DNA of 48,978 nt from a virus. The position numbers and the translations under genes were made by a program. The notes under the pieces were generated by a model. It saw only the letters and a list, made by a program, of their open reading frames with translations. It ran no database searches and had not been told where the DNA came from. Shown here in pieces: positions 5,127 to 25,894 of the stretch. The stretch lies in IMG/VR virus record IMGVR_UViG_3300048928_000203, positions 1 through 48,978 of that record; one strand, 5' to 3'. Numbering within the stretch: the stretch's first letter is position 1; the number at the start of each line of letters is the position of its first letter.

Positions 5127-5804
5127 TTAACGGGTGTTGTACTTGCCGACAACGCGATGGCAGACAGGCCAATCCGCGCGAAATTCCTTGAATTCTTTAT
5201 GCGGGTTGTACTGTTCTAACATCCATTCGCGGTCATTGAAGCCGACGAGTCGCTTGATGATCGCTTCGTTCTCGTCCATTGCGCTTGTGTGATAAAGAAT
5301 TACGTCTTCATCGCGAACTGGCGGCAAGTTCGGGTTTACGAGTGCAGTTTCGCCTGGTCGATAGGCAGGAACCATTGATTCCCCAGATAATAGAAGGCCG
5401 TAACCACCCTTAACGCCCTGCAGGACTGCAGGCATTTTCATATAGCTGATTGGATCAAAGGTGATGATGACGTGTCCATCGCCGCCCTTCGCCGCAGCGT
5501 AAACAGGCAGGCCTCGTTCTTGGCTTACGAGCTGATCGCCGGGGATTGGTGTTGGTGTGAACGTATCAGAAGTTGGTTTCACTGACGTCGCAGTCATCTC
5601 GCCGTTGCCAAAGGCAAGCCAATCCTCATTAAGATCCAGCGCACGAGCCAGGCGGGCAACAAACTCAACGCTGGCCCCACGCTTCCCGCCTTCCAAAAGA
5701 CTGATCGACGACTTGTCGCGCCCAATTAGAGCGGCAAGGTCAGCCTGGCTCATTCCTTTAAGGTCACGCGCCAAACGAAGGCGCTGCGCGAAATCTTTGT
5801 CCAT
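5127..5804 (-). CDS. CI-like repressor with S24 (LexA-type) peptidase domain
   Basis: The 225-residue start at 5804 (MDKDFAQRLRLARDL) fits the family; a longer frame runs through the operator region and is rejected. The N-terminal XRE helix-turn-helix is about residues 16-45 (MSQADLAALIGRDKSSISLLE). A flexible linker rich in T and P follows. The C-terminal S24 domain has the nucleophile serine in GESMVPAYRPGE (about residue 143) and the general-base lysine in AIIKRL (about 184). Proteins of this type keep the prophage dormant and self-cleave when RecA is activated, which would couple induction to DNA damage. The Shine-Dalgarno is weak. The gene diverges from the rightward promoter at 5861. 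Confidence 0.9.
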   Translation of the reverse strand: MDKDFAQRLRLARDLKGMSQADLAALIGRDKSSISLLEGGKRGASVEFVARLARALDLNEDWLAFGNGEMTATSVKPTSDTFTPTPIPGDQLVSQERGLPVYAAAKGGDGHVIITFDPISYMKMPAVLQGVKGGYGLLLSGESMVPAYRPGETALVNPNLPPVRDEDVILYHTSAMDENEAIIKRLVGFNDREWMLEQYNPHKEFKEFRADWPVCHRVVGKYNTR

Positions 5805-5811
5805 GTTGCGC

Positions 5812-5848
5812 TTTTCGCATATTGTTGTGAAAATGTAACGTGCGAAAA
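5812..5848. promoter_or_regulatory. TTTTCGCA/TGCGAAAA operator-like dyad
   Basis: TTTTCGCA (5812-5819) and its exact inverse TGCGAAAA (5841-5848) flank 21 bp between the repressor start and the rightward promoter. A further TGCGAA lies at 5871-5876 inside that promoter. Position suggests repressor or Cro-type control. Confidence 0.45.
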
Positions 5849-5860
5849 TGTCACCGAGTG

Positions 5861-5889
5861 TTGACAGAGATGCGAATCTGTCATATATA
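5861..5889 (+). promoter_or_regulatory. Rightward early promoter (PR-like) with embedded operator
   Basis: TTGACA (5861-5866), a 17-bp spacer and TATATA (5884-5889) form a consensus sigma-70 promoter. The spacer is almost filled by an inverted repeat, TGACAGA (5862-5868) and TCTGTCA (5877-5883), so a bound repressor dimer would cover the promoter. It points into the large rightward operon. Confidence 0.8.
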
Positions 5890-5943
5890 GGTGTCATCAA
5901 CCGGCGCATAAGACGTCGGATAGTTCGAAGGAGGGCCTACCTC

Positions 5944-8308: not shown

Positions 8309-8472
8309 CGGCGCCCTTCAAAGACTACGTCGTCGAGGACGACCGCATCATCACAGAAAAGCAGTTGTCCAGCGAAACGACGCTAGGTCTCGGTGATCGC
8401 TTCGTTCAAGGGCTGTTAGTTGTCGCGGCTTTAGCGCTGGCCATCGGTTTTTACTCATGGGTGTTGTCGTGA
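8305..8472 (+). CDS. Small single-span membrane protein
   Basis: A 55-residue protein overlapping the previous stop. The N-terminal 30 residues are charged and polar (FKDYVVEDDRIITEKQLSS). The C-terminus is one hydrophobic helix (GLLVVAALALAIGFYSWVL), so it is likely a tail-anchored inner-membrane protein facing the cytoplasm. It overlaps the next small membrane protein by 4 bases. No family recognised; superinfection exclusion or holin-like roles cannot be told from sequence. Confidence 0.55.
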   Translation: MTAPFKDYVVEDDRIITEKQLSSETTLGLGDRFVQGLLVVAALALAIGFYSWVLS

Positions 8473-8573
8473 CCTACCCACGGTTCCCTACGCTGGCGAC
8501 GTCGGCGCCAGTCTGGCTGATCGGATCGCTCATTCTGTTGGCAATGATGATCGTCATTCAGCTTACCCACTAA
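8469..8573 (+). CDS. 34-residue membrane peptide
   Basis: The GTG start overlaps the previous TGA (GTGA). The product MTYPRFPTLATSAPVW continues into a hydrophobic helix (LIGSLILLAMMIVIQL) and ends at TAA. Together with the preceding gene it forms a pair of overlapping single-span membrane proteins in the early operon. Coding status is inferred from coupling and the membrane helix. Confidence 0.45.
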   Translation: MTYPRFPTLATSAPVWLIGSLILLAMMIVIQLTH

Positions 8574-8593
8574 CCACACACGAGGAGTTAATT

Positions 8594-9367
8594 ATGGCTA
8601 TCAGCCTATCAAGCCTCAAATCGACGAAGAGAAACGACCCGCCAGTCATGCTTCTGTATGGCGTCGACGGTATCGGCAAGACCAGCCTTGCCGCTGAGTT
8701 TCCAGATCCGATCTATCTGGCCACAGAAGGCGAGCGTCCTCCATCTGATATCGAAATGGCAACGCCAGGCACGATTGAAAGCTTCGACGACTTGCTCAAC
8801 ATTATCGGCGAACTGCTGACAGTTGAGCATGATCGGCGCACAGTGATTATCGACAGCGTCGACGGATTAGAACCTCTTGTCTGGGCGGCGACCTGTGCCC
8901 GCTTAGGAGTAAGCAGTATTGAAGAGCCTGGGTTCGGGCGTGGTTACGTCGAGGCTGATAGCGAGTGGCATGAACTGATGTCTGCAGTCTCAGCGCTCTC
9001 GCGTACCGGAATCCATGTCGTGATGCTGGCCCACCCTGAGATTATTCGGTTCGACAGTCCAGTCACCGATCCATACTCACGCTACACGATCAAGTTGCAT
9101 AAGCGAGCCAATTCTCTCGTCCGGGAAAAGGTCGATATCGTGGCCTTCATGAATTATCGCGTGTCCATCAAGGAGAAAGAAGTCGCTCGCCAAACGAAAG
9201 TGGCGCACGCCGAAGGTGGCAAGGAGCGTAATATTCATCTGAATGAAGGTGCGGGCTATGTGGCGAAAAATCGCTTCTCTATGCCGGACTCGATCGTTTA
9301 CCGAAAAGGTCAGGGCTACGCTGAGTTAGCGAAGTTCTGGGCTGAAGAAAAAGCTGAAGCTGCATAA
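8594..9367 (+). CDS. Sak4-like RecA-fold ATPase
   Basis: A 257-residue protein behind ACACGAGGAG. Walker A is GVDGIGKTS (residues 23-31) and Walker B is TVIIDS (83-88); a polar HVVMLAH segment (about residues 137-143) fits motif C. This is the AAA_24/Sak4 type of phage ATPase, a RecA-core protein that promotes single-strand annealing together with a single-strand-binding partner. The DUF669 gene downstream (10034) is its usual neighbour, which supports the assignment. It probably works in phage recombination and replication restart. Confidence 0.85.
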   Translation: MAISLSSLKSTKRNDPPVMLLYGVDGIGKTSLAAEFPDPIYLATEGERPPSDIEMATPGTIESFDDLLNIIGELLTVEHDRRTVIIDSVDGLEPLVWAATCARLGVSSIEEPGFGRGYVEADSEWHELMSAVSALSRTGIHVVMLAHPEIIRFDSPVTDPYSRYTIKLHKRANSLVREKVDIVAFMNYRVSIKEKEVARQTKVAHAEGGKERNIHLNEGAGYVAKNRFSMPDSIVYRKGQGYAELAKFWAEEKAEAA

Positions 9368-11764: not shown

Positions 11765-12823
11765 ATGCGGGTAACGCTTGACCGAGCGCAGCTTGCGCAC
11801 GCCTTATCGGCCGTGACGAAGGCGGTTGAAGCCAGAACGACAATTCCTATTCTTGGCAACGTGCTTTTGTCCGCGGACAAAGGACAGCTGAGCATCACCG
11901 GTACAAATCTTGATCTGCAAATCAGTACCAGTTTGCCGGTTCTGGACAGCCAGGACGGCACTGTTACGGTTGCAGGCAAGCTGCTTGCGGACATTGCCAA
12001 GAAGGCAACCGGTGACGTTAAATTGGAAGCCGACGGCAATCATCTGGTCGTTAAATCTGGCAAGAGCCGTTTCAAACTGGACACGCTGCCAGCTGCTGAC
12101 TTCCCGTCCTTCAATCACGGAAGCTTCGACACCACGATTGAGTTCGATCTGGCATCGCTCGTGCAGGAAGTGCAGTTTGCTGTCAGCACCGAAGAAACCC
12201 GCTATTATCTCTGCGGCGTCTTTCTGGAAGCAAAGGACGGCCATATCGTTGCCACGGCGACAGACGGGCATCGTCTTGCGTCGACACGCATTGAGCAGGA
12301 AGCCACGTTTGCGCCGGTCATTCTGCCTAACAAGTTGCTGTCATTGCTGCCAACCGGCGCCGTGTCAGTTTCGCTGTCGTCAAACAAGGTGATGGTCGCG
12401 AGCGGTTCGACTGTCATTGTGTCGAAACTCGTCGACGGCACATATCCAGATTACGAGCGCGTTATTCCAAAGCCATCGGAGCGTGTCGCTACGCTGTCGG
12501 CAAAAGCACTGCGCGAAGCCGTCGGCCGCACATCAGTTATCGCAAGCGAGCGCGGTAAAGCCGTTCGCTTCTCGTTTGCATCTGACGCTTTAACGCTGAA
12601 TGTCGCTAATCCGGATCGCGGCGATGCTACCGAGGAAATGGAGGTCAACTTCAGCAGCGAGCCTCTGACGATCGGTTTTAACGGCCAGTATGTCACCGAT
12701 CTTATGGCGGCGTTTGGTGCGGATGAAATCACAATGTCGATGGCGGACTCCGGTTCGCCCGCTTTGATCACGTCGACGAGCAGGCCGGGGTATAGGTGTG
12801 TAATTATGCCGATGCGCGTGTAG
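11765..12823 (+). CDS. dnaN: DNA polymerase III beta subunit (sliding clamp), phage copy
   Basis: A 352-residue protein close to the usual bacterial length (about 365-375). It opens MRVTLDRAQLAHALSAVTKA and shows clamp blocks TTIPILGNVLL, LDLQISTSLPV, ATDGHRLA (about residues 162-169), DGTYPDYERVIP and the C-terminal hydrophobic-cleft segment CVIMPMRV. Three similar domains can be followed. It forms a ring that tethers the polymerase to DNA. No DNA polymerase gene is seen in the phage, so this clamp probably recruits the host polymerase to phage DNA. Leader ACACGAGGAG. Confidence 0.95.
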   Translation: MRVTLDRAQLAHALSAVTKAVEARTTIPILGNVLLSADKGQLSITGTNLDLQISTSLPVLDSQDGTVTVAGKLLADIAKKATGDVKLEADGNHLVVKSGKSRFKLDTLPAADFPSFNHGSFDTTIEFDLASLVQEVQFAVSTEETRYYLCGVFLEAKDGHIVATATDGHRLASTRIEQEATFAPVILPNKLLSLLPTGAVSVSLSSNKVMVASGSTVIVSKLVDGTYPDYERVIPKPSERVATLSAKALREAVGRTSVIASERGKAVRFSFASDALTLNVANPDRGDATEEMEVNFSSEPLTIGFNGQYVTDLMAAFGADEITMSMADSGSPALITSTSRPGYRCVIMPMRV

Positions 12824-21707: not shown

Positions 21708-21882
21708 GAAGGTCGCTAAGTTCCTTGGCATCGCGGTAGTTCAGACCTACCGCCTGCCGAGATCCCATCTCGACTAGCTTTTGAGCTTTCTGATCAAACA
21801 CTGACCAAGTGTCGTTTACTCCGTTCGATGTCTTGTAGCGTCCACCGATGTACCGTCCACCCGTTAATGTCGATCTGCTCAT
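21673..21882 (-). CDS. Small protein, distant paralogue family member 5
   Basis: Start at the ATG at 21882 behind AAAGGAC. The 69-residue product begins MSRSTLTGGRYIGGRYK and then shows the family pattern: NDTWSVFD, then a helix DAKELSDLLNTLEAK. It aligns with the four plus-strand members at 0.9-3.6 kb, though PA.VNG is replaced by VEMG. It converges with, and overlaps by 35 bases, the end of the cytosine methyltransferase gene. Function unknown. Confidence 0.55.
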   Translation of the reverse strand: MSRSTLTGGRYIGGRYKTSNGVNDTWSVFDQKAQKLVEMGSRQAVGLNYRDAKELSDLLNTLEAKRQAS

Positions 21883-21917
21883 GCGAGTCCTTTCAAGGAA
21901 CGAATCAATTGAAAACA

Positions 21918-24113
21918 ATGAGTACAGCTATGGTTAATTCAGCGCAACCTTTGGTCAATGATGCTGACCCAATGCTCGACGTCGCGTTGTCGTATCGGGC
22001 GCAGAACTGGCCCGTATTTCCGTGTCGCCACTGCGACGAAGAAATCATTGATCCACAAACCGGCGAAATTGAAATCCTAGCCACCAAGACTCCACTCACC
22101 AGCAACGGGTTCCGCGGCGCGACGCTGAATGAGCGCATCGTTCGCGAATACTGGCGCCGCAATCCATCCGCTATGATCGGCGTGCCAACCGGTGCACCAA
22201 TTGGCGCATGGGTGCTGGATATCGATCCGAAACACGGCGGCGACGAAACGCTTGCAGCGCTGGAGGCCGAACACGGCGTATTGCCTGCAACCCTGACAGC
22301 AGAAACCACGAGCGGCGGCCGTCACTATTTCTTCCGTCATCGTCAGGGCGTTCGCAACCGCGGCGCGCTTGGTGCTGGCGTGGATGTGCGCGGTGATGGC
22401 GGTTATGTCATTGCAGCTGGCAGCGTGCCGGAGGTCGGACTGCCTTATCGCTGGGTGTCTGAGCAAGAGCCGGTCGACGCTCCAGACTGGTTGCTGGAGC
22501 TGGTGCTGCCGCGCTCATATGAGAGCACATACACCGCAGCGCCGTCTGTCAGCGGCAAGATCAACGATCGTTATGTAGAGCGTGCAGTTCAATCCGAGCT
22601 GGACGACCTTGCGCTTGAACCGATGGGCAACCGCAACAACCGCTTGAACGACGCCGCGTTTCGTTTGGGCACTTTTGTCGGGGCGGGCGCACTTGCTGAA
22701 TCTGAAGCGCGCGCTCTGCTGCAAGACGTGGCACGAGGCTGGGGCCGCGACTGGCCGCGTTGCGTCAAGACGATCGACAACGGACTTGCTGCTGGTGCGC
22801 GGAGCCCACGCACTGTGCCGCAGAATGACAACGACAACACACGTCTGGTTGATATCAGCAGGATGATTGCCAATGGCTTGGCTAAAGCTGAGGCGCGCAC
22901 TGACATTGTTGCAGAGCCAGTCGCGGACTTAGATGAGAATATTAGCAATAGTGAACAAACCACTGAAAATAAACGCGCAATCATCGCAACTCCTTTCGTG
23001 TGGAAAGACCCGTCGACGCTTCCACGGCGCGAGTTTGCGTTTGGTAAGCACTTCATTCGCAAGTATGTTTCAGTGACGGTCGCGCCGGGCGGTCTTGGCA
23101 AAACTGCGAACAGCATCGTCGAGGCATTGGCCATGGCGTCGGGTAAAGCGCTCAATGGCACGAAACCGTCGAAGCGTCTGAAGGTCTGGTTGTTCAATGC
23201 CGAAGATCCGCGCGACGAACTTGAGCGCCGTATCATGGCGGCATGCATTCATTTCAATCTGAAGCCAGCAGATATCGATGGGCATCTCTTTCTGGACACC
23301 GGCCGCGAGCAGGAATTAGTCATTGCGATCGACGACAAGAAAGGCGTGCGGATTCAGGAGCCGGTCGTTGAAGCTGTCGTCGAAACGATCTCTGAACTTG
23401 GCATTGACGTGATGATTGTTGACCCGTTCGTATCGACGCACCAGGTCAATGAAAACGACAACGGCGCAATCGACAAGGTGGCCAAGCTTTGGGCGCAGGT
23501 CGCTGACCGCACGAACTGCTCAATCGATATCGTGCATCATCTGCGTAAGGTGAGCGATCGTGAAGCTACGGTCGAAGATGCACGCGGTGCTGTGTCCCTA
23601 ATCGGTGCGGCGCGCTCAGTGCGTGTGCTTAATCGCATGTCGGAAGCGCAAGCCAGTGAGGCTGGCCTTACACACGAAGCGCGGTTTTCGTATTTCAGTG
23701 TAGTCTATGGCAAATCAAACTTGTCGGCACTGTCGCACAAGGCTGACTGGCGCAAGCTGGAGAGTGTCGCGCTCGGGAACGGGCAGGGCCTGACCAAGCC
23801 TCAAGACCATGCGCCGGTCGTGACGTCGTGGGCGTGGCCGACGAGCGAGGAAGTTGCCGAAACGCTCACCGAAGACGAGCGCGACGCAATCCGTGGCGTT
23901 GTGAACGGCGGCATGTATAAGCCGGCACCACAGGCCAAGGATTGGGTAGGCCGTGCCGTTGCTTACGCGCTGCAGCTGGACGTCGACAAAGAGGCCGACA
24001 AGAAGCGCGTCGGAATGATCACCAAGGCGCTGTTCGCGGAAGGATTCTTAATGAAGGTGGAAGACCGGGACCCTGTTCAGCGTAGGGCGACGACGTTTGT
24101 GAGAGCGATGTGA
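21918..24113 (+). CDS. Bifunctional primase-polymerase with RepA-like helicase domain
   Basis: A 731-residue protein from ATG 21918; a TTG at 21909 is better spaced from AAGGAA and may be the true start. The N-terminal prim-pol domain (residues about 20-200) has WPVFPCR, KTPLTSNGFRGAT, MIGVPTG and the catalytic DID at 101-103. The C-terminal AAA_25/RepA-like domain has Walker A APGGLGKTA (389-397) and Walker B VMIVDP (about 495). It would prime and unwind DNA at the phage origin. NDNDN lies in the linker. A perfect terminator follows the stop. Confidence 0.92.
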   Translation: MSTAMVNSAQPLVNDADPMLDVALSYRAQNWPVFPCRHCDEEIIDPQTGEIEILATKTPLTSNGFRGATLNERIVREYWRRNPSAMIGVPTGAPIGAWVLDIDPKHGGDETLAALEAEHGVLPATLTAETTSGGRHYFFRHRQGVRNRGALGAGVDVRGDGGYVIAAGSVPEVGLPYRWVSEQEPVDAPDWLLELVLPRSYESTYTAAPSVSGKINDRYVERAVQSELDDLALEPMGNRNNRLNDAAFRLGTFVGAGALAESEARALLQDVARGWGRDWPRCVKTIDNGLAAGARSPRTVPQNDNDNTRLVDISRMIANGLAKAEARTDIVAEPVADLDENISNSEQTTENKRAIIATPFVWKDPSTLPRREFAFGKHFIRKYVSVTVAPGGLGKTANSIVEALAMASGKALNGTKPSKRLKVWLFNAEDPRDELERRIMAACIHFNLKPADIDGHLFLDTGREQELVIAIDDKKGVRIQEPVVEAVVETISELGIDVMIVDPFVSTHQVNENDNGAIDKVAKLWAQVADRTNCSIDIVHHLRKVSDREATVEDARGAVSLIGAARSVRVLNRMSEAQASEAGLTHEARFSYFSVVYGKSNLSALSHKADWRKLESVALGNGQGLTKPQDHAPVVTSWAWPTSEEVAETLTEDERDAIRGVVNGGMYKPAPQAKDWVGRAVAYALQLDVDKEADKKRVGMITKALFAEGFLMKVEDRDPVQRRATTFVRAM

Positions 24114-24117
24114 AAAG

Positions 24118-24140
24118 AGCGCCCTACGGGGCGCTTTTTT
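24118..24140. terminator. Bidirectional intrinsic terminator
   Basis: AGCGCCC (24118-24124) pairs with GGGCGCT (24129-24135) around a TACG tetraloop, followed by TTTTTT on the plus strand; on the minus strand CTTTTC follows. It ends both the primase-helicase gene and the convergent DUF4145 gene, whose TAG stop falls inside it. Confidence 0.85.
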
Positions 24141-24912
24141 GTTTCGTAGCTTTGTCTCTTTGCTTAATGCCGTTCACTTTATTTTCAGGTAGCTGGTCAT
24201 AAATATCAGCAAGCATATTTCTGTTCGTGATGGTCTTCTCTACAATAAGATTGAATATAAGAAAAAGTTTGTTTGCAGTAGTTCTGTCTTCGTTTAGATT
24301 AACCGACCCGTAGTGAACCGATTCATTGCCCAATATCCTTATGATATCCATCGACCTTTGAAGTTCTTCGCTTAAACCCAACTCCACCAAGTTCTTAATA
24401 TTGCCATTGATGTCGTCACCTTTCAGTCCAATGAAATTAAGCAACTTTTCCAGCGCGACTCGCAAAATAGCGGCAGAAGCACGGGGCGATATCGCAAATA
24501 TTTCCGCTGCCTCGTTATAATCAGGCAATATTTCTGCTGGTGTATCGACATGTGCTCGTGAGACTTCTAATTTTAATGGATAGACCATTCTCTCGCCGAT
24601 CCAAATTGAGAAGTCTTTACAATTGTCACACTGTGCGAACCAAGTGAGACGCATCGGACTAGCTGTCATCGCTGTTCCACTCTCTATGAATGGCGCAGTG
24701 GGTAGCTCCTTTTTGAGTAACGGAAATGTGCTCGTACCCAGCGAAATGCTGGCCTGCAGGTCTCTTAGAGTCTGTGAGGTTTTCAAATTTTCTAAGTCTT
24801 TTTCAGGAGTATTAGCCATTACGCTTACGCCGCAAGTTAGCCAACTCTGCCTAGAATAGACGCCACAATGTGGACAGTTGAATGCTGTTTTTTCGATTGA
24901 AGGTAAGTTCAT
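24124..24912 (-). CDS. DUF4145-domain protein, candidate defence cargo
   Basis: A 262-residue protein on the minus strand. The N-terminus has a zinc knuckle (FNCPHCGVYS with a later CDNC pair). The C-terminal half matches DUF4145: ISPRASAAILRVALEKLLNF, then NIKNLVELGLSEELQ, then IIRILGNESVHYGS. The R..GN..VH pattern is HEPN-like. DUF4145 domains are found in restriction systems and other anti-phage proteins. The gene is visibly AT-richer than its neighbours and oppositely oriented, features of an acquired cargo gene. The exact activity is unknown. Confidence 0.75.
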   Translation of the reverse strand: MNLPSIEKTAFNCPHCGVYSRQSWLTCGVSVMANTPEKDLENLKTSQTLRDLQASISLGTSTFPLLKKELPTAPFIESGTAMTASPMRLTWFAQCDNCKDFSIWIGERMVYPLKLEVSRAHVDTPAEILPDYNEAAEIFAISPRASAAILRVALEKLLNFIGLKGDDINGNIKNLVELGLSEELQRSMDIIRILGNESVHYGSVNLNEDRTTANKLFLIFNLIVEKTITNRNMLADIYDQLPENKVNGIKQRDKATKQKSAP

Positions 24913-25021
24913 TTCACACCCAAAAATAGAATCACTGCGTCGATTTCACCATACAATAATCCGCCGCAACACAACCCGCTGTCACAATCAAAATGCAACC
25001 CTAGGTAACGCGTAAGTCTTG

Positions 25022-25059
25022 TTGCGTAAGTCTCAAAAAACCTAAAAAGACTTGCGCAA
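25022..25059. repeat. Dyad 1 of the array
   Basis: TTGCGTAAGTCT (25022-25033) faces AGACTTGCGCAA (25048-25059) across 14 A-rich bases, 11 of 12 positions matching. Confidence 0.7.
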
Positions 25060-25074
25060 AAGCACGCTGCTTTT
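25058..25074. repeat. AAAAGCA/TGCTTTT hairpin between dyads
   Basis: AAAAGCA (25058-25064), CGC, TGCTTTT (25068-25074): a perfect 7-bp stem directly after dyad 1. Because it ends in T residues it could also act as a short terminator. Confidence 0.5.
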
Positions 25075-25075
25075 A

Positions 25076-25109
25076 GTGCGTAAGAGTTCTTATATAGAAA
25101 CTTACGCAC
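25076..25109. repeat. Dyad 2 of the array
   Basis: GTGCGTAAG (25076-25084) and CTTACGCAC (25101-25109) are perfect 9-bp arms; pairing continues with TTCT and AGAA around a TATAT centre. Confidence 0.75.
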
Positions 25110-25121
25110 AAAGCGCGCAGC

Positions 25122-25150
25122 GCGTAGTTCTATGCGTTTGAGAACTACGC
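25122..25150. repeat. Dyad 3 of the array
   Basis: GCGTAGTTCT (25122-25131) and AGAACTACGC (25141-25150) are perfect 10-bp arms around 9 bases. The half-site lacks one A compared with the other copies. Confidence 0.75.
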
Positions 25151-25300
25151 ACTTTTAGAAAATTTTCCTGATTGAAAAATACAACCTGATTTGAGGTTGG
25201 TTGAAATTATGCCGGTCGACGCTTGACCGACCTGTCACTCCCACCATGATGTGAATTGTCGGCCTACCAAGCTGACACACCATGAATACGAGGAGAGACC

Positions 25301-25894
25301 ATGACACGAAGACGTGCGCTGAAAGGCGCGTCATCCAACAAGCCCAATCCAAGCAAGCGCAATTCCAAACCAAGCACAACAAAAGCCACAATCCAAACCG
25401 TGCGCATTAATGGCGTTCGAACAATTATCACGACACGTGACGGCAAGGTGACAACAAAAGCAGCCCTGCCTCTGGAATGGGAATTGCAAGCTGCACAAGT
25501 TCGCAGCCTGCGTAAACTGCCAGAATACGTTCACACAGCGAGAGACGTTCGACCCGGCACGTTCACACTGGCTGGAGATCAGAACGCAGCCAAGCGTGGA
25601 CCCAAGGCAAGAGCTGAAGCATTAGCGGCAGGACTGACGCCGGGAGAAGCAGACGTTCGGATTTACCTCTACGGTGGTGTGCTGCGGCAGATTGAAAACA
25701 AGGTCGGCAAGGCCAGGCTCGAACCAAGCCAGATAACCCGCCACCCGTTGCTTGATGCTCTTGGCTTCCCCGTGGTGGTTGTCAGGGCAGTGACCGAAGA
25801 AGATGCAGCAGAGCAGGCAGTGAGGCTGGTTAAAGGCTGGCTGCTGGAAGCTTCGAACGATAACCAACCAAAAACACACGGGGAAGCAGCATGA
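25301..25894 (+). CDS. VRR-NUC domain nuclease
   Basis: A 197-residue protein with leader ATACGAGGAG. The N-terminal 60 residues are basic and disordered (RRRALKGASSNKPNPSKRN). The VRR-NUC core is about residues 98-175: KRGPKARAEALAAGLTPGEAD with the metal-binding aspartate, GGVLRQIENK with E-x-K, then LEPSQ and a final strand FPVVVVRAV. This PD-(D/E)XK family includes Holliday-junction or structure-specific nucleases such as the FAN1 core. It probably resolves branched phage DNA before packaging. SNDNQ lies near the end, and the stop overlaps the next ATG. Confidence 0.85.
   Translation: MTRRRALKGASSNKPNPSKRNSKPSTTKATIQTVRINGVRTIITTRDGKVTTKAALPLEWELQAAQVRSLRKLPEYVHTARDVRPGTFTLAGDQNAAKRGPKARAEALAAGLTPGEADVRIYLYGGVLRQIENKVGKARLEPSQITRHPLLDALGFPVVVVRAVTEEDAAEQAVRLVKGWLLEASNDNQPKTHGEAA

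Follow-up and report, generated by a model that had tools for sequence, protein, structure and literature searches.

What is a tight cluster of short inverted repeats doing beside the replication genes of a prophage? The window analysed here, the whole stretch of 48,978 nucleotides, is a prophage-like record related to Brucella/Ochrobactrum prophages, with a tRNA-Lys at 432-507 near one end. The prophage also encodes a DNA polymerase III sliding clamp (beta subunit, 11765-12823) with all three Pfam domains. Judged from sequence comparison, the repeat array is very probably an iteron-type origin that is read by the phage's own fused primase-helicase-winged-helix protein.

Layout of the array and its surroundings

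The array and the genes on either side of it were located as follows.

21828 to 24113, plus strand: primase-helicase gene, with Prim-Pol at residues 53-221, a RepA-like AAA_25 helicase at residues 389-576 and a predicted C-terminal winged helix at about residues 675-761
23850 to 24110, plus strand: part of that gene coding for the winged helix of the predicted model, the proposed reader of the half-sites
24124 to 24912, minus strand: DUF4145 / PD-T7-4 anti-phage-defence-like gene (PF13643, 7e-12; PADLOC PD-T7-4, 2.4e-65)
25010 to 25150, no strand: seven-copy half-site array of the GCGTAAG/GCGTAGTTCT type, the proposed initiator-binding part of an origin
25301 to 25894, plus strand: VRR-NUC-type nuclease gene, the right-hand neighbour of the array (phrog_824 and a weak endonuclease match)

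The first-pass annotation described seven half-sites in alternating orientation that form three dyads in non-coding DNA, and all of these were found again. Half-sites on the plus strand begin at 25010, 25024, 25078 and 25122, and those on the minus strand lie at 25048-25058 (a GCGC variant), 25098-25108 and 25141-25151. The sole reading frame that overlaps them is a GTG-initiated ORF of 66 amino acids without support. A separate AAAAGCA/TGCTTTT stem that had been placed between the first two dyads is present as letters, but TGCTTTT belongs rather to an inverted repeat of about 60 bp around dyad II. The consensus fold places dyad II at the heart of this longer repeat, and the stem is therefore better read as a part of it. 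The elements of the array region are as follows, none of them assigned to a strand.

25022 to 25059: dyad I, TTGCGTAAGTCT / AGACTTGCGCAA, with arms at 25022-25033 and 25048-25059 that are complementary at 11 of 12 positions and co-vary in relatives
25062 to 25121 (about): central nested inverted repeat of the consensus fold, in which dyad II is flanked by the outer arms GCACGCTGC / GCGCGCAGC
25076 to 25109: dyad II, GTGCGTAAG...CTTACGCAC, with perfect 9-bp arms around the core AGTTCTTATATAGAAA, which has 19% GC and contains TATATA
25122 to 25150: dyad III, GCGTAGTTCT / AGAACTACGC, with perfect 10-bp arms
25151 to 25210: AT-rich stretch (73% AT, percentile 0.9999), a candidate DNA-unwinding element

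The densest 150 bp of the window held six exact GCGTA[AG] half-sites, compared to a mean of 2.2 and a maximum of 4 in the densest 150 bp of 300 dinucleotide-preserving shuffles of the whole window. A looser consensus was only mildly enriched window-wide (17 matches, 10 expected), and it is thus the clustering that is unusual; no second half-site cluster was found elsewhere in the window. The 60 bp that adjoin the array on its right are the most AT-rich of the 49-kb window, so that the locus combines clustered short sites beside an initiator gene with an adjoining AT-rich stretch, as iteron-type origins do. GC skew did not change sign at the array. DnaA boxes are frequent in iteron-type origins, but they are not universal. 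Two one-mismatch DnaA-box-like matches overlapped half-sites here. In the window as a whole, DnaA-box-like matches numbered 55 where 66 were expected, and this lack of enrichment leaves DnaA boxes unsupported as a component of the origin.

Conservation of the array and exchange of its neighbours

Relatives were gathered by three queries, namely the nuclease, the next gene after the nuclease and the primase, and the close set was defined as the distinct complete primase-to-nuclease gaps with a primase at least 74% identical. The central dyad was present in all 48 distinct gaps, with one copy per locus and always in the same orientation, and eight host genomes of 3.8-5.5 Mb carried exactly one copy of the array each, as expected of a specific element. 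The first-pass annotation had weighed an association with the primase-helicase against one with the DUF4145 gene, and the array stayed with the replication genes (48/48) and not with DUF4145. When named phages were searched for DNA similar to the array, nothing was found. The array was also found at about 8450-8700 of NZ_CP022602.1 (L182), a 19.7-kb circular Ochrobactrum plasmid, whose mode of replication is not evident from its annotation. The primase-helicase gene of this plasmid is internally deleted, and it was for this reason set aside as a natural test of autonomous replication and is not used as evidence.

The distance from the primase to the central dyad varied from 0.6 to 5.1 kb among the relatives and was filled by differing genes, and in a few relatives extra DNA lay between the array and the nuclease instead. 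Within the sequences compared, the flanking genes change and the array is constant, and the DUF4145 gene belongs to the exchangeable cargo of a variable slot and is no part of the origin. The same slot (L002, L007, L017, L022, L033, L040, L055, L057 and L097) held matches to AriAB (PARIS), PDC-S05, PDC-S19, PDC-S39, PDC-S49 and a Schlafen-type ATPase, and also to porins and HWE histidine kinases. Between primase and origin there is in this respect a slot for variable cargo in which anti-phage-defence-like genes abound. A DUF4145-based search of viral contigs found no relatives. Profile scans found distant DUF4145 proteins in two other slots (L033 and L057), and the claim that DUF4145 is unique to the window was dropped on that ground. 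The array is independent of DUF4145 genes. The following two flanks accompany the array.

24970 to 25009, no strand: left flank ACAACCCGCTGTCACAATCAAAATGCAACC...GGTAAC, conserved, with the variable cargo stopping just left of it
25179 to 25206, plus strand: right flank ATACAACCTGATTTGAGGTTGG, conserved in relatives

ACAACC/ATACAACC elements lie in both flanks and are kept across relatives, and they possibly mark the boundary of cargo exchange.

Conserved inverted repeats might also be expected of a structured RNA with three hairpins, for example a regulatory RNA or a set of terminators. Both strands of the array folded better than shuffled sequences (z of -4.3 and -5.3), and the arms of each dyad varied jointly, with 11 of the 42 consensus pairs still paired despite changes on both sides. 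However, inverted DNA sites yield the same folding and covariation signal, the RNAalifold covariation term was slightly unfavourable (+0.22), and the array had no match in Rfam. In one relative (L073) the half-site was altered in concert across separate dyads, from GCGTAAG to GCACAAG and related forms, and each of the three dyads contained copies in which the core GCGTA had become GCACA. The more distant arrays described below consist of many copies of one short repeat and not of three defined stems. This concerted change and the many-copy arrays favour a protein that acts in trans and reads symmetric DNA sites over RNA stems, and we regard the RNA explanation as highly improbable. Hairpins on exposed single strands may nevertheless matter for priming.

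Repeat types and the proteins they accompany

Primases of other types were followed by other arrays just downstream, including those built from TCGATAGGAAA, CCCATACA, GGACGAAAC and TGGATAATT. One type carried a TTTGTCCCGC repeat with up to 19 copies of its core, and another a GGTGGAGCA/GGTGGCGCA repeat. Phages 16-3 and RHph_X2_25 had a GCGTGACAA repeat downstream of the helicase gene, and in plasmids of Methylobacterium, Microvirga and Rhodoplanes the stop codon of the helicase gene was followed directly by repeats of the GGTGGGG or GGTGACGCA type. The arrays of pVL1_6 and of Rhodoplanes plasmid 1 came immediately after a RepA-type helicase gene, and neither the annotation of pVL1_6 nor a Pfam scan of ten of its proteins revealed another replication initiator. 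A few primase relatives (L157, L170) showed no clear array in the sequence examined. A universal central core (CTWTAG-like) was considered as well, and it failed in some classes. The retention of the array in all 48 close gaps and the separate arrays of other primase-helicase types support a phage origin beside a replication initiator, the reading that the first-pass annotation had preferred.

The alternatives that it had named, an operator or a recombination site, are now much less likely. An operator array for a phage regulator of the divergent flanking genes would account for paired dyads between such genes, and the TATATA core of dyad II could then mark a promoter under operator control. 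Yet the neighbours swap freely and the array does not, the repeat type is independent of the downstream gene, and the arrays of other classes stand in a co-directional context directly after the helicase stop codon. Moreover, no sigma-70-like promoter match was found within the array, and the intergenic stretch beside the CI-type repressor gene (5127-5909) held no copy of the half-site array. We consider an operator very unlikely. The terminase genes lie a few kilobases beyond the array, a place that would suit a packaging (cos/pac) site or else a site of site-specific recombination. Against this, the known cos of phage 16-3 is at the end of its record, about 3.6 kb from its array, the tRNA-Lys is a more usual integration site, and plasmids too carry such arrays after a helicase gene. 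A packaging or recombination site is thus hardly credible.

The origin reading requires a protein that could recognise the repeats, and the primase-helicase offers a candidate domain. Its Pfam matches were PF09250 (Prim-Pol, 5e-38) and PF13481 (AAA_25, 5e-33), and its profile matched RSF1010 RepA (1g8y) with an E value of 4e-8. In an AlphaFold model of residues 595-761 (mean pLDDT 84), model residues 1-78 matched the end of the RSF1010 RepA fold, with 21% identity over 62 residues, and model residues 81-167 matched winged helices, of which BLM RQC, SelB and MepR were the best, at a modest Z of about 5. The C-terminus is predicted from this model to be a winged helix joined to an RSF1010 RepA-like helicase.

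The repeats were then compared with the proteins in 33 representatives, with the similarity between arrays expressed as a cosine. In the pairs L033/L036 and L057/L036 the nucleases were 92-96% identical, the helicase and C-terminus were 17-20% identical, and the array similarity was 0. In the pair L163/L177 the Prim-Pol domains were 20% identical, the helicases 53% and the C-termini 31%, with an array cosine of 0.73. All pairs with an array cosine of at least 0.3 had a C-terminal identity of at least 28%. The rank correlation with array similarity was 0.46 for the helicase and 0.48 for the C-terminus; these values differ little and come from related sequences. The repeat type goes with the helicase and the C-terminal part jointly, and not with the nuclease gene or the Prim-Pol domain; as determinants of the repeat, helicase and winged helix are inseparable among these 33 representatives. 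The coupling is not proof of recognition, since physical linkage by itself could carry an array along with the helicase gene and would yield part of the pattern.

A GC-rich hairpin with the core CCTTTAGG (e.g. CACCCCTTTAGGGGTG) was common to arrays with quite different repeats and lay downstream of the helicase gene at L030, L094, L074, L163, L173, L186, L187 and L189. Its role may be in priming or in structure, and it may be conserved more strongly than the repeats are.

The link to the replication protein would be no different if the array were a replication-associated site and not the start itself. Examples would be a region for copy control or incompatibility (like crr of satellite P4), a site of primosome assembly and a secondary origin. 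Control functions are common among iterons, and the GC-rich hairpin, a second one, inside several arrays would fit such a site. On the other hand, each phage has one array in a constant place, with no second half-site cluster in the window, and we judge a site of this kind to be unlikely.

Known initiation systems and a proposed course of initiation

In both the archaeal plasmid pRN1 (PMC4234260) and SaPI (PMC7581432) the origin lies just downstream of the initiator gene, and RSF1010 uses a separate protein, RepC, to read its iterons (PMC4234260). The pRN1 protein ORF904 resembles the protein described here in that it joins a Prim-Pol-type primase, a helicase and a C-terminal winged helix (predicted in our case), and its essential, dyad-containing origin has a position just downstream of the gene, like that of the array (PMC4234260). 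However, pRN1 combines an SF3 helicase with a single 100-bp stem-loop without iterons, whereas the prophage has a RepA/RecA-like helicase and a half-site array. The P4 alpha protein and SaPI Rep are self-contained initiator-helicases that read repeats with a C-terminal winged-helix or DNA-binding domain, as we propose here. In contrast to their SF3/AAA+ helicases, the helicase of the prophage is AAA_25 RecA-like and matches RSF1010 RepA, and its primase is Prim-Pol where that of P4 is of the Toprim type. The different helicase type, together with the single stem-loop in the case of pRN1, means that the module is not a member of the P4/SaPI or pRN1 type.

The likeness to RSF1010 (IncQ) lies in the RepA-family hexameric helicase and in the iterons. 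The RSF1010 primase needs hairpins, such as those of its ssi sites, and hairpins that may serve in priming are present in the array region. In RSF1010, RepA, RepB' and RepC are separate, whereas here one protein unites the primase, the helicase and the domain presumed to bind the repeats, and its primase domain is of the Prim-Pol type (PF09250), unlike that of RSF1010. In PrimQH, a family of PrimPol-PV1 primases, a primase is combined with a RepA/DnaB or other ATPase and a C-terminal winged helix, and Kazlauskas et al. (2018, PMC5862659) suggested that the winged helix of fused primases might recognise the origin. The accessible text of that paper describes no origin repeats that match, while arrays of that sort were found here; the likeness is one of architecture. 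A literature search with poor coverage of subscription journals returned no report of these arrays, and in a keyword search of the accessible text of the BiPBO1 and AP-16-3 (16-3-like phage) papers, neither repeats of this kind nor an origin were mentioned.

A course of initiation can be proposed from these comparisons. The winged helix of the primase-helicase would bind the inverted half-sites, and their pairing would bring protein to either side of the AT-rich centre of dyad II as well as next to 25151-25210. The DNA would then melt, either at the dyads with the AT-rich core of dyad II or in the AT-rich flank, and the ring of the RepA-like helicase would be loaded. To judge by the domain content of the protein, the Prim-Pol domain would then make the first primers, perhaps at single-strand hairpins, as RepB' of RSF1010 does at ssi sites, and the fused winged helix would do the job of the separate RepC.

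Compared to the first-pass annotation, these results add a likely reader of the sites, the C-terminal winged helix, as well as the coupling between repeat and protein and the nature of the DUF4145 gene. The published idea that a C-terminal winged helix of Prim-Pol proteins recognises origins is now directly testable with named DNA sites, including those of the laboratory model phage 16-3. The arrays can serve as candidate origins in a large number of rhizobial and Brucellaceae prophages and in several untyped plasmids, and they supply many naturally occurring combinations of winged helix and repeat in which the evolution of such specificity can be studied. The cargo slot may be a new hotspot of anti-phage genes. 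As a tentative proposal, which we hold with more doubt than conviction, Alphaproteobacterial phages and plasmids may share a module in which a single protein, a fusion of primase, RepA helicase and winged helix, initiates replication at the array that belongs to it. The winged helix and the repeat would evolve in step, and so rapidly that every lineage comes to have an origin to itself, which would allow related prophages to share a cell, and the interval between helicase and origin would serve as a landing slot for anti-phage genes.
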